Shown: piece after piece, positions 1 through 5,408 of the stretch
How positions within the stretch are numbered: the stretch's first letter is position 1
Layout of the letters: each line of letters opens with the position of its first letter
From: a bacterium
Lineage (GTDB): Bacteria > BMS3Abin14
Direction: 5' to 3'
Assembly: GCA_029210545.1 (NCBI GenBank)
Contig: JARGFV010000146.1
Coordinates: forward strand, 1 to 5,408
Length of the DNA stretch: 5,408 nt
The notes under the pieces: generated by a model
What the model was told of the DNA's origin: nothing
What the model saw: only the letters and a program-made list of their open reading frames with translations
Database searches by the model: none
Made by a program: the position numbers and the translations under genes

Positions 1-108
1 AAAAGCGTCGTTTTCCCTTTCCTCACAAATCAATGACTTGCGGGACCGGTCATTGATTTGGGCGCCCCGCGCGGGGCGCGTTGATGGACTTTTTGCGAGT
101 CCATCAAT
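1..108. repeat. Structured repeat element, copy A (right part, cut by window edge)
   Basis: This stretch aligns without gaps to positions 1436-1543 of copy B. It contains the same series of foldbacks: the right half of an AAAA/TTTT-rich hairpin (1-22, loop GCGTCG), a perfect 12-bp stem CAAATCAATGAC/GTCATTGATTTG (26-37 with 49-60), a perfect 18-bp GC palindrome (62-79), and a terminal 10-bp stem TTGATGGACT/AGTCCATCAA (81-90 with 98-107). Most differences from copy B are in the 11-base loop at 38-48 or are paired changes in the palindrome. It is non-coding and is probably the right end of a small non-autonomous element or a REP-like chromosomal repeat. Confidence 0.85.
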
Positions 109-140
109 TTTCGAGAGTGCAAAGTGCAAAGATGAAAGAG

Positions 141-1371: not shown

Positions 1372-1398
1372 TTTATACATTGTTTGATAGAGTCGCAA
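1372..1398 (-). promoter_or_regulatory. Weak candidate promoter of the leucine-rich-repeat gene
   Basis: On the minus strand TTGCGA (1393-1398) is followed after 15 bases by TATAAA (1372-1377), about 50 bases before the ATG at 1321. The -10 is good but the spacer is short. The -35-like hexamer lies inside the end of repeat copy B, so this element may supply part of the promoter. Confidence 0.25.
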
Positions 1399-1542
1399 AA
1401 AGTCCAATCCGGGACTTTTCGCTCCACGGAAAGGGAAAAGCGTCGTTTTCCCTTTCCTTACAAATCAATGACTTATGGTGCGGGTCATTGATTTGGGCAC
1501 CCCGCGCGGGGTGCGTTGATGGACTTTTTGCGAGTCCATCAA
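1384..1542. repeat. Structured repeat element, copy B (complete, with terminal inverted repeats)
   Basis: This is the only complete copy in the window. Its first 23 bases (1384-1406, beginning TTGATAGAGTCGC) and last 23 bases (1520-1542, ending GAGTCCATCAA) are inverted repeats matching at 21 of 23 positions. Inside, in order, are hairpins AAAAGTCC/GGACTTTT (1398-1405 with 1412-1419), GGAAAGGGAAAA/TTTTCCCTTTCC with loop GCGTCG (1428-1457), CAAATCAATGAC/GTCATTGATTTG (1461-1472 with 1484-1495), an 18-bp palindrome (1497-1514) and the terminal TTGATGGACT/AGTCCATCAA stem (1516-1525 with 1533-1542). There is no coding potential. The layout fits a miniature inverted-repeat element or REP/BIME-like repeat mobilised in trans. 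Flanks share ATTGTTT (1379-1385, 1544-1550) and TTTATA (1372-1377, 1548-1553), but not exactly at the element ends, so a target duplication is unproven. Confidence 0.85.
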
Positions 1543-1557
1543 TATTGTTTATATCAT
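1528..1557 (+). promoter_or_regulatory. Weak candidate promoter for dgt at the edge of repeat copy B
   Basis: TTGCGA (1528-1533), inside the terminal hairpin of copy B, is followed after 18 bases by TATCAT (1552-1557), which matches five of six bases of a sigma-70 -10 box. It points toward dgt, but the start codon is about 360 bases away, with two further structured elements between. No better promoter is obvious in 1558-1919. Confidence 0.22.
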
Positions 1558-1919: not shown

Positions 1920-3068
1920 ATGTTAAGGATCGAGAGGGAACGTAAGGAGAAGGATGAACTGTCCCTGTTCGGGGCGTTAAACTCCCTTTCCCGGGGGCGT
2001 CAGTATCCGGAGGAGGAACACCGGTACCGCCTGGCCTTCGAAAGGGACCGGGACAGGATCATCCACTGCAGCGCTTTCAGGCGGATGGAGTACAAGACCC
2101 AGGTCTTTTTTTACCACGAGGGTGATTATTTCAGGACCCGGCTGACCCATTCCCTGGAGGTTGCGCAGATCAGCCGTTCCGCCGCACTCGCGCTTGACCT
2201 CAACGAGACCCTCGCCGAAGCCGTCGCTCTCGCCCACGACCTGGGGCACACGCCCTTCGGTCACGCGGGAGAGCGGGTCATGGACAACCTCATGAAGGAC
2301 GCGGGAGGGTTCGAGCACAACCTCCAGTCCCTCCGGGTGGTCGACCTTCTCGAGGAACGGTATCCGGACTTCACGGGCCTGAACCTCACCTGGGAGGTTC
2401 GTGAGGGGATCGCCAAGCACAGCACCGATTTTGATCAGCCCGAGATCGCGGCTTTCGGTGAAACCCAGCCAAGCCTGGAGGCCCAGATCGTGGAACTGGC
2501 CGACGAGATCGCCTACAACAACCACGACCTGGACGACGGCCTGACATCCCGGATGCTCGAGCAGGGGGAACTGTCCAGGGTCACCTTGTGGAGAACCGTC
2601 ACCGAAAGCATCTTATCGGAATGGGTTGGCATCAGCCCGGCAATGCTCAGGCACGAATCGATCCGGAAGATCATCAACTGGCAGGTGACCGACCTTGTCG
2701 ACAATATCGCACGGAACCTGAAACAGATGGGGATCTCCAACCGGGAAGAACTGGCCCAGGCCGGCGAACGGGTAGCCTCGTTCAGCTCCGAGATGGAGGA
2801 GATGAACAGGGAACTCAAGAAATTCCTGAGGGATAACCTGTATGCCCACTACCGGGTGACACGGATGGCTGAAAAGGCTCAAAGGATCCTCGTCGACCTT
2901 TTCAACGCATACCTGGACAAGCCGAAGCAGCTGCCCCCATCCACCTATAACAGGATCAAGGGCGGCGGGGACGTTAAAAGGGTGGTCTGCGATTACATGG
3001 CCGGGATGACCGACAAGTTCGCCCTGGAGGAGTACAAGAAGCTTTTCGACCCCTATGAGAAAGTATGA
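1920..3068 (+). CDS. dgt: dGTP triphosphohydrolase-like HD-domain protein
   Basis: The 382-residue product is an HD-superfamily dNTP triphosphohydrolase, which splits dGTP or other dNTPs into deoxynucleoside and triphosphate in the cytoplasm and so trims the nucleotide pool. The conserved N-terminal block HCSAFRRMEYKTQVF (49-63) is followed by TRLTHSLEVAQISR (73-86, metal ligand H77), the signature AHDLGHTPFGHAGE (105-118, H106 and D107), FEHNLQSLRVV (131-141) and LADEIAYNNHDLDDGL (193-208, D195), giving a complete H...HD...D set. Length is normal for the shorter bacterial dGTPase-like subfamily, and the family-typical C-terminal YMAGMTDKFALEEYKKLF is intact. The ATG at 1920 follows GGGAGG by 4 bases, and its leading residues match the family start. 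The gene seems to be transcribed alone: the next gene is 215 bases away with its own promoter. Substrate preference (dGTP or general dNTP) cannot be read from sequence. Its leader is crowded with repeats. Confidence 0.95.
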   Translation: MLRIERERKEKDELSLFGALNSLSRGRQYPEEEHRYRLAFERDRDRIIHCSAFRRMEYKTQVFFYHEGDYFRTRLTHSLEVAQISRSAALALDLNETLAEAVALAHDLGHTPFGHAGERVMDNLMKDAGGFEHNLQSLRVVDLLEERYPDFTGLNLTWEVREGIAKHSTDFDQPEIAAFGETQPSLEAQIVELADEIAYNNHDLDDGLTSRMLEQGELSRVTLWRTVTESILSEWVGISPAMLRHESIRKIINWQVTDLVDNIARNLKQMGISNREELAQAGERVASFSSEMEEMNRELKKFLRDNLYAHYRVTRMAEKAQRILVDLFNAYLDKPKQLPPSTYNRIKGGGDVKRVVCDYMAGMTDKFALEEYKKLFDPYEKV

Positions 3069-3198: not shown

Positions 3199-3283
3199 GT
3201 AATAGTTGCAGATAAAGATTTTTTCCGGGAAAGCCCATCATCTGGATTCCCCGTGTGAAAACATGGGAGCGAAGGAGAAAGTA

Positions 3284-3571
3284 ATGAAAAACAGTATCCC
3301 CGTTCTGATCGCACTGCTCGCCCTGGCCCTGGTTCCCCTGACTGTTATGGCCGAAGAGATGGTCGATATGGAAGCAGCCAGGGTGGCCTTCGAGACCACC
3401 TGCTCCAAGTGCCACGATCTGCAAAGATCCCTTGCCAGGTCCAAGGATCTGGAAACCTGGGAGAAGACCGTAGGCCGCATGTCCGAATATCATAAACGGT
3501 TCGGCGCGCCCATCCCGGAAGAGGACCAGAAGGCAATCGTTCAGTATCTCGTGGAAAACGCGGGGAAGTAG
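3284..3571 (+). CDS. Small exported mono-heme cytochrome c
   Basis: The product is 95 residues. Residues 1-23 form a Sec signal peptide: MKNS, a hydrophobic leucine/alanine core, then VMA before EE. The mature part of about 72 residues has one heme-binding CSKCH (C40, C43, H44) and a later WEKTVGRM segment where M66 is the likely sixth iron ligand, followed by IPEEDQKAIVQYL, a typical C-terminal helix of small class I c-type cytochromes. It should be a soluble periplasmic electron carrier; its redox partners are unknown, because no oxidase, reductase or maturation gene is nearby. The ATG at 3284 is preceded by AAGGAG with 6-base spacing and places the signal peptide at the N terminus; the upstream in-frame TTG near 3206 would put a charged stretch before it and is not used. 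A single-gene unit is likely, with its own promoter and a strong terminator. Confidence 0.92.
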   Translation: MKNSIPVLIALLALALVPLTVMAEEMVDMEAARVAFETTCSKCHDLQRSLARSKDLETWEKTVGRMSEYHKRFGAPIPEEDQKAIVQYLVENAGK

Positions 3572-3706: not shown

Positions 3707-3749
3707 GGAACGGTTTGAGTCGGTCAGGAAGATCTTCTCAAACCGTTCC
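3707..3749. other. Long perfect inverted repeat spanning the dinB stop codon
   Basis: GGAACGGTTTGAG (3707-3719) and CTCAAACCGTTCC (3737-3749) are perfect 13-bp inverted arms around a 17-base loop that contains the dinB TGA (3724-3726). The inner arm encodes part of the C-terminal RRNGLRRSS of polymerase IV. There is no T-run on the minus strand after it, so it may protect the 3' end of the dinB mRNA or assist the terminator at 3631-3659. Confidence 0.6.
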
Positions 3750-4962
3750 TTCTCCAGCTCGGAGAGATCACCCTCAACTCTCCAAAATCGGGCAGCGCGT
3801 CGGCGTAGGTCAAGGTGAACTCACCGTACCTGTTGTTGATCCGGTCGAGGGTTTCCTGCACCTGGTTTCCATTGGGAGACGCCGGGGAACAATCCGGGAA
3901 AAGGAGGCCGTTGGAAATTGTCCCGGGTTCCCTGGTGATGGAAACACCCAGGAGACGGACAGGTCTGGACAACCTGATGGTACTGAAGATCTCCATGGCC
4001 GTTCTGTAGATCTCACCCGTGTTATTGACGGAAGAGGGCAGGGTCCGCTGCCTGGTGTGGGTGGTCATGTCGCTGTAGCGCCACGTCAACGTGACCCGCT
4101 TCCCTGAAAATCCGTGTTTCCTGGCACGCCTTCCCACCATCTCGGAAAGGGTGAGAAGCACCCGGCCGGCAAAATCCCTGTCGACCGTGTCCGCCTGGAG
4201 GGTAACCGAATGGCCGACACTTTTCGTAACCTCATCCTTTCCTTCCGGGCATTCGCGGTGGGGGTCCAGTCCCCGGGCCATGTCCCCCAGGTGAACTCCT
4301 CTCGCTCCGAATTTTCCGCCCAGAAGCTCCACCGGGTAACGTCCCAGCTGTCCGCAGGTCCTTATTCCCATCCCGTGGAGGACCTGGCTTGTTTTCGGCC
4401 CGATGCCCCCGATCCTTTCCACGGGCATCTTTTCCATCAGTTCGCTCACCTCATCGGGAGATATGACCGTCAACCCGTCAGGCTTTTCCATGCCACTGGC
4501 AAGTTTGGCCAGGAGCCTGTTTTCTCCGATCCCCACGCTGCACGTCAAACCGGTGTCTTCCCCTATTTTATTCTTGATCGCCCTGCCGAGCTCCCGGGGT
4601 AAACCGGATTCAGGCAGGAGAAACGTCCCTTCGAACCACGCCTCGTCCACGGAGGTAACTCTCAGGTCGGGTGTAAAGGTGCCCAATGCGTCCATGACCC
4701 TGCCAGACGCGTCCGAATATTTCCTGTAGTCGGCCCGGATCACCGTCAGACCCGGGCACACACAGCGTGCCTGGGCCACCGTCATCCCTGTTCGAACGCC
4801 TGTCTTCCTCGCCGGATAACTTGATGTTGTGATGATGCTTCTCTTCCCTGGTCCCGCAACGGCGCAGGGGCGGCCCTTAAGGGCAGGGTTTGCCAGTTCC
4901 TCCACCGAAATGAAGAAGGCATCCATGTCCACGTGGACGAAGATCCGCCCGTTCAAGGTCAT
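3724..4962 (-). CDS. dinB: DNA polymerase IV (Y-family, translesion synthesis)
   Basis: The 412-residue product is a complete Y-family polymerase, which copies past damaged template bases with low fidelity. Visible motifs are HVDMDAFFISVE (10-21; catalytic D12, likely steric-gate F17), SSYPARKTGVRTGM (47-60, fingers), TSVDEAW (103-109; catalytic D106 and E107), SVGIGENRLLAKLAS (142-156, palm), the helix-hairpin-helix IGGIGPKTSQVL (184-195, thumb), and a little-finger domain from about 245 to 345 beginning KSVGHSVTL and including RPVRLLGVS. The C terminus ends in RRNGLRRSS with no obvious QxxLxLF-type clamp-binding motif. The ATG at 4962 is chosen over the TTG one codon upstream: its A is also the last base of the TGA of the preceding small gene (TGATG), a classic translational-coupling arrangement, and no strong Shine-Dalgarno lies close to it. 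It is convergent with the cytochrome gene. SOS control is usual for the family, but I could not identify a LexA site here. Confidence 0.95.
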   Translation of the reverse strand: MTLNGRIFVHVDMDAFFISVEELANPALKGRPCAVAGPGKRSIITTSSYPARKTGVRTGMTVAQARCVCPGLTVIRADYRKYSDASGRVMDALGTFTPDLRVTSVDEAWFEGTFLLPESGLPRELGRAIKNKIGEDTGLTCSVGIGENRLLAKLASGMEKPDGLTVISPDEVSELMEKMPVERIGGIGPKTSQVLHGMGIRTCGQLGRYPVELLGGKFGARGVHLGDMARGLDPHRECPEGKDEVTKSVGHSVTLQADTVDRDFAGRVLLTLSEMVGRRARKHGFSGKRVTLTWRYSDMTTHTRQRTLPSSVNNTGEIYRTAMEIFSTIRLSRPVRLLGVSITREPGTISNGLLFPDCSPASPNGNQVQETLDRINNRYGEFTLTYADALPDFGELRVISPSWRRNGLRRSS

Positions 4963-5213
4963 CAAGGCAGGCTGATCCCCTCGATGTGCCAGGAAAGGGT
5001 CTCGCTGTTCATGACGAGATGGAATGTGTCAGGGCCGTCTGAAACGGAAAAGTGGTGCAAGGTGGCGAGGCCCTGCCTCTCGATCCACACGTGGTTGACG
5101 CCGGAGACCTTTACCTTCCGCCCTCCGAAGACGAACCAGGCCGGGCTTACCTTCGCGCCGTGCCCGAATATGGCGCCGACCACCACCGGGTCATTGAGAG
5201 TTTCGCTGGTCAT
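4962..5213 (-). CDS. Small unrecognised protein translationally coupled to dinB
   Basis: The 83-residue product starts MTSETLNDPVVVG and is not one I recognise. It appears to be a small soluble beta-rich domain: alternating hydrophobics in AWFVFGGRKVKVSGV (25-39), then HVWIERQGLATLHHFSVSDG (41-60), and DTFHLVMNSETLSWHIEGI (62-80). There is no signal peptide, membrane helix or cysteine. The conserved-looking W, F, G-G-R and H positions suggest a folded domain, not a shadow frame. Its TGA overlaps the dinB ATG by one base, so the two are almost certainly cotranscribed and coupled, and a role with polymerase IV is the natural inference. The layout loosely recalls small domains of the DUF6504 type associated with Y-family polymerases in other phyla, but I cannot claim homology. 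The ATG at 5213 lacks a clear Shine-Dalgarno; in-frame upstream codons to a TTG at 5294 would read into the repeat element and are rejected. Confidence 0.7.
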   Translation of the reverse strand: MTSETLNDPVVVGAIFGHGAKVSPAWFVFGGRKVKVSGVNHVWIERQGLATLHHFSVSDGPDTFHLVMNSETLSWHIEGISLP

Positions 5214-5261: not shown

Positions 5262-5408
5262 TATCAATGTTTGATAGGGTCGCAAAAAGTCCAATCCGGG
5301 CCTTTTAGCTCCACGGAAAGGGAAAAGCGTCGTTTTCCCTTTCCTTACAATGACTGCTGATAGATCACCAAAGTCTGTGCGAGACTTTGGCTCTACGGGA
5401 AGGGAAAA
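5262..5408. repeat. Structured repeat element, copy C, truncated and joined to a second divergent unit
   Basis: From TGTTTGATAG (5268-5277) to about 5350 the sequence matches the first half of copy B: CGCAAAAAGTCC (5281-5292), the GG(C)CTTTT arm with one mismatch (5299-5306), and the perfect GGAAAGGGAAAA/TTTTCCCTTTCC hairpin with loop GCGTCG (5315-5344). The remaining modules of copy B are absent. Instead, from TGATAG (5358-5363) a new divergent first module begins, with a perfect 9-bp stem CCAAAGTCT/AGACTTTGG (5368-5376 with 5382-5390), then CTCTACGGGAAGGGAAAA, which runs off the window edge. A small TATCAA/TTGATA stem (5262-5276) marks the left boundary. The element lies just upstream of the small gene-dinB unit, as copy B does for the leucine-rich-repeat gene. 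Confidence 0.8.

Follow-up and report, generated by a model that had tools for sequence, protein, structure and literature searches.

The window analysed here, a 5,408-nucleotide stretch of DNA that makes up an entire contig of a draft bacterial genome (2.72 Mb, 97.5% complete), carries a gene for a Y-family DNA polymerase (dinB) preceded on the same strand by a small gene (Table 1). Two genes, one for a small cytochrome c-like protein and one for a dGTPase, are convergent with dinB, and several relatives (e.g. loci L135 and L138) have dinB, cytochrome and dGTPase in this same order; a leucine-rich-repeat protein with a TTG start is encoded near the other end. A dispersed hairpin repeat occurs three times in the window. 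The draft genome as a whole has at least 40 copies of it (327 candidates at first look), several of which lie at contig ends, and the repeat probably breaks the assembly.

Table 1. Features of the 5,408-nucleotide window and the evidence on which they are assigned
Feature	Position	Strand	Basis
Hairpin repeat, first copy	1..111		
Leucine-rich-repeat protein, 368 aa	263..1369	-	
Hairpin repeat, second copy	1378..1546		
dGTPase	1920..3068	+	
Small cytochrome c-like protein	3206..3571	+	
Y-family DNA polymerase (DinB/Pol IV type), 412 aa, ATG at 4962	3724..4962	-	Pfam IMS 4e-43, IMS_C 7e-25; NCBIfam Pol IV
Conserved C-terminal polymerase tail RVISPSWRRNGLR (consensus ISPxWRPxGxR)	3727..3771	-	Common to polymerases of the same sub-group and Geobacter
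RecA-NT-like (DUF4113 N-terminal) motif in polymerase C-terminus	3796..3861	-	Weak DUF4113 match, residues 368-389, E 0.037
TGATG, stop of small gene overlapping polymerase start	4960..4964	-	
Predicted stand-alone ImuB-C (DUF6504-like) protein, 83 aa	4962..5213	-	Family searches, profile comparison, predicted structure
Dispersed hairpin repeat where relatives have lexA; contig ends inside	5265..5408		

The small gene ends in a TGA stop that has one base in common with the ATG of dinB, and its own ATG at position 5213 agrees with the starts of aligned homologues, so that the longer frames in the list of open reading frames (110 or 148 residues) were ruled out. Orthologues with 45-59% identity (E 1e-23 to 1e-31) are present in six genomes of the same family, each directly 5' of dinB with overlapping stop and start codons. 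Changes in a close orthologue pair are dominated by the third codon position (2, 4 and 14 at the three positions), with a dN of 0.03, a dS of 0.31 and a dN/dS of ~0.1. Because of these overlapping orthologues and the low dN/dS, the small gene is real and not a chance reading frame, which bears out the 83-residue gene that a preliminary description, made from the sequence alone, had placed across the start of polymerase IV. That description had also seen no strong ribosome site for dinB, a fair reading, as dinB is preceded only by a purine run, GAGGGG, whose spacing (14 nt upstream) is poor. A search for a sigma-70 promoter before the small gene found none.

The family link of the window protein rests on profiles, the single sequence having no Pfam match at E ≤ 1, to DUF6504 or otherwise; single-sequence scans of Pfam, NCBIfam and PHROGs and a sequence search of the PDB likewise gave nothing useful. 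Among 19 family members, 16 touch Pfam DUF6504 (best E 2.5e-6), and comparison of the family profile with a profile of the DUF6504 hits returned a probability of 98%. ImuB proteins for comparison were drawn from plasmid ImuA-ImuB-DnaE2 cassettes, and the C-terminus of one of them is matched by DUF6504 above the curated cut-off (32.2 bits). When 81 family sequences were compared by hhalign with seven full-length ImuB proteins, they aligned over the whole C-terminal domain of ImuB (columns 418-503 of 505, E 1.4e-5, probability 80%), while five column shuffles, LexA and DinB used as controls gave E values of 0.11-0.83. With HMMER by itself the family could not be linked to ImuB (best E 0.042); the link came from profile-profile comparison. 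Since the family aligns to the ImuB C-terminus where controls fail, and DUF6504 is found on both, these profiles identify the 83-residue protein as a stand-alone member of the ImuB-C superfamily (DUF6504).

This superfamily was defined by Aravind et al. 2013 from 'GSU0042-like' small proteins, whose stand-alone members are found most often beside dinB, often with lexA, and for which DNA binding was proposed (PMC3765255); its members are small accessory proteins that travel with error-prone polymerases in the SOS response. The window protein shares with the GSU0042-like proteins (PMC3765255) its length, its beta character and conserved residues that include a late Trp. The Geobacter proteins fall in the same alignment, and members from Geobacter and Desulfuromonadaceae are ~26-38% identical to the window protein. 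The operon is the lexA-imuB-C-polY arrangement known from Geobacter (PMC3765255, PMC6511836, PMC12926913), where the order of lexA, small gene and polymerase is like that of the family, although the upstream lexA was not found in the window genome.

A profile of 19 members detected homologues in 72 of 386 genomes across the domain. About 4 kb was fetched on each side of the family matches, and polymerases and LexA/S24 proteins in these loci were scored with profiles built for this analysis. Among the 65 loci with strong matches (the window and one plasmid included), at least 48 have a Y-family polymerase that begins no more than 200 nt downstream on the same strand, at least 56 have one within 1.5 kb downstream, and at least 25 have LexA within 400 nt upstream, contig ends making these neighbour counts lower bounds. 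By the counts for polymerase and lexA, the small protein is a conserved partner of the polymerase operon. Its role may not be polymerase binding alone, because neither neighbour was found within the fetched DNA at three of the 65 loci and some others (e.g. L139 and L105) have lexA without an adjacent polymerase. A scan of named records yielded 24 loci, from Geobacter, Desulfuromonadaceae and Nitrospirae among others; in most of the 24, lexA stands immediately upstream of the family gene, and in many a polymerase follows it directly. On a Geobacter anodireducens plasmid LexA comes first, then the small protein, then a polymerase that is broken into two frames. At one locus (L129, G014:C25) a divergent family member is followed immediately by a UmuD-like S24 protein and a Y-family polymerase, an arrangement that may be an ImuB-C with a Pol V operon. 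Single-protein scans of genome contigs and viral contigs found no relatives, nor did phage records.

The profile search and table of neighbours that the preliminary description had called for agree with its view that the small protein accompanies the polymerase: the homologues are mostly beside dinB, they show conservation at the codon level, and they match no unrelated family. It had also held that the protein resembles neither UmuD nor YolD, and both families were rejected here, UmuD for want of a Pfam or NCBIfam match and with an E of only 0.27 when the profile was aligned with LexA, and YolD because neither the window protein nor 19 relatives match the Pfam YolD model. The proposal of an undescribed accessory factor did not stand, the family having been described in 2013 (PMC3765255).

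The partner polymerase matches several NCBIfam Pol IV models, keeps the catalytic motifs VDMDAFF and SVDEA, and has a clamp-like LLFPD in its C-terminal region. Its RecA-NT-like pattern, VQETLDRINNRYGEFTL, recurs in most tails of polymerases adjoining ImuB-C and is the expected RecA-binding element. The extreme tail reads ISPSWRRNGLR in the window polymerase, and this conserved segment could be a docking site. The ISPxWRPxGxR tail pairs with the window type of ImuB-C, and another tail, VLRTPSLTK (loci L102, L106, L110, L112, L117 and L123), pairs with an RADFxG type; this co-variation may reflect co-evolving docking tails or shared ancestry only.

A single-sequence model of the small protein was unusable (pLDDT 38), and a model based on an alignment of 22 sequences was used instead, predicting eight strands and no helix (pLDDT 91.4, pTM 0.80). 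Trp75 is among the residues that are invariant in the family alignment, and a beta-strand protein with a conserved C-terminal Trp and no catalytic pattern is as expected for ImuB-C. A fold search of the PDB returned nothing below an E of 0.099 (best Z 6.0 over 46 residues), and the best viral fold match was a siphovirus protein (E 0.009, TM 0.56). ImuB-C has been published as a novel fold (PMC12926913), with which the lack of a close PDB neighbour for the model is consistent, though no proof.

Relatives have lexA between smc and the small gene, and in three of them an operator-like palindrome, GGTATAC-N4-GTATACC, stands ahead of lexA. In the window genome lexA is absent both from the 195 nt between the small gene and the contig end and from the 505 nt before smc on another contig (C138), the palindrome is absent from the draft genome at up to two mismatches, and the sole LexA found is encoded on contig C87. 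On these grounds the neighbouring lexA has likely been lost, with the gap between the two contigs unread. The C87 locus (L143, G000:C87, 864-6000) is a second cassette, in which lexA is accompanied by a Y-family-like protein without the SxDE motif, and hence inactive-looking, and by a DnaE2-like polymerase III alpha; it resembles the DnaE2B-iPolY type of PMC12926913. It is conceivable, though rather doubtful, that the ImuB-C/polymerase pair lost its own LexA and operator to the hairpin repeat, and that a pair once gated by the SOS response is now constitutive or under the C87 LexA.

We consider it likely that the small protein is an all-beta ImuB-C accessory subunit produced jointly with an active Y-family polymerase (a GeoPolY-like DinB). 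Within ImuB, this domain forms one protein with an inactive Y-family polymerase and works with ImuA and DnaE2, whereas in the window ImuB-C is separate and the partner polymerase keeps its catalytic residues. The fused protein binds ImuA' through its RecA-NT motif, a contact that ImuB-C stabilises (PMC11791113), and by analogy the small protein would most likely be the small subunit of a PolY/ImuB-C/RecA mutasome. ImuB-C would bind both the polymerase and RecA held on the RecA-NT motif of the polymerase, forming a translesion complex that it would stabilise while controlling when the polymerase acts, much as the fused domain does in ImuB, or UmuD' in Pol V; coupled translation across the gene overlap would match the output of the two proteins. 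UmuD' of Pol V and YolD/YqjX of Bacillus offer a parallel in that a small subunit is encoded before a RecA-NT-bearing Y-family polymerase. The likeness would be one of analogy; no homology to the window protein was detected, the window protein is not a LexA-like peptidase, and the ImuB-C barrel is unlike the SH3-type barrel of UmuD' and YqjX (PMC12926913). PolY complexes with ImuB-C were modelled in a 2026 survey (PMC12926913), and a physical or regulatory effect of ImuB-C on the polymerase is predicted in the literature (PMC3765255, PMC6511836, PMC12926913), in which we found no experiment on a stand-alone ImuB-C paired with an active Y-family polymerase and no purified stand-alone member.

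Among the other readings, the one put forward by Aravind et al. 2013 (PMC3765255) is rather unlikely here; in it the protein binds DNA, senses damage and directs polymerases and further repair enzymes to the lesions, and is not itself a regulatory subunit bound to the polymerase. This reading would fit the other repair genes in the fetched loci, where inspection of the sequences by eye picked out Tag-like and Fpg-like glycosylases, RadC and UmuD, as well as a weak, non-significant profile match to affitin, a Sul7d-type DNA-binding scaffold (E 0.2-0.7). The polymerase is nevertheless the dominant neighbour, often in an overlapping frame, no DNA-binding SH3 or OB protein is prominent among the top fold matches, and the ImuB domain has been modelled touching the proteins DnaE2 and ImuA rather than DNA (PMC12926913).

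That the protein instead serves mainly to co-regulate the SOS operon, together with LexA or by acting on it, and just happens to precede the polymerase, appears very improbable: lexA does lie immediately upstream at 25 of the 65 loci, a few of them with no polymerase found alongside, but a polymerase is found next to the small gene more often, the domain occurs fused to the polymerase-like ImuB with no LexA fusion seen, and in the window genome the small gene and polymerase have stayed together without a neighbouring lexA. There is scarcely any likelihood that the frame is non-coding, or translated solely for translational coupling to dinB with an inert product, as the overlap and the weak ribosome site of dinB might suggest, when the protein is conserved across many bacterial families with invariant residues, is under the codon-level constraint described above, is homologous to the ImuB domain and occurs away from dinB.

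With the small protein read as an ImuB-C subunit of its polymerase, the window brings one more member of the family, from a lineage that has been sampled little, and a possible loss of lexA, but not a new kind of system. What had seemed a mystery partner of Pol IV is now placed in the ImuB-C family, which among the modules of bacterial mutasomes is the least characterised, and the two-gene ImuB-C/PolY pair offers a minimal set-up in which to test what stand-alone ImuB-C does.
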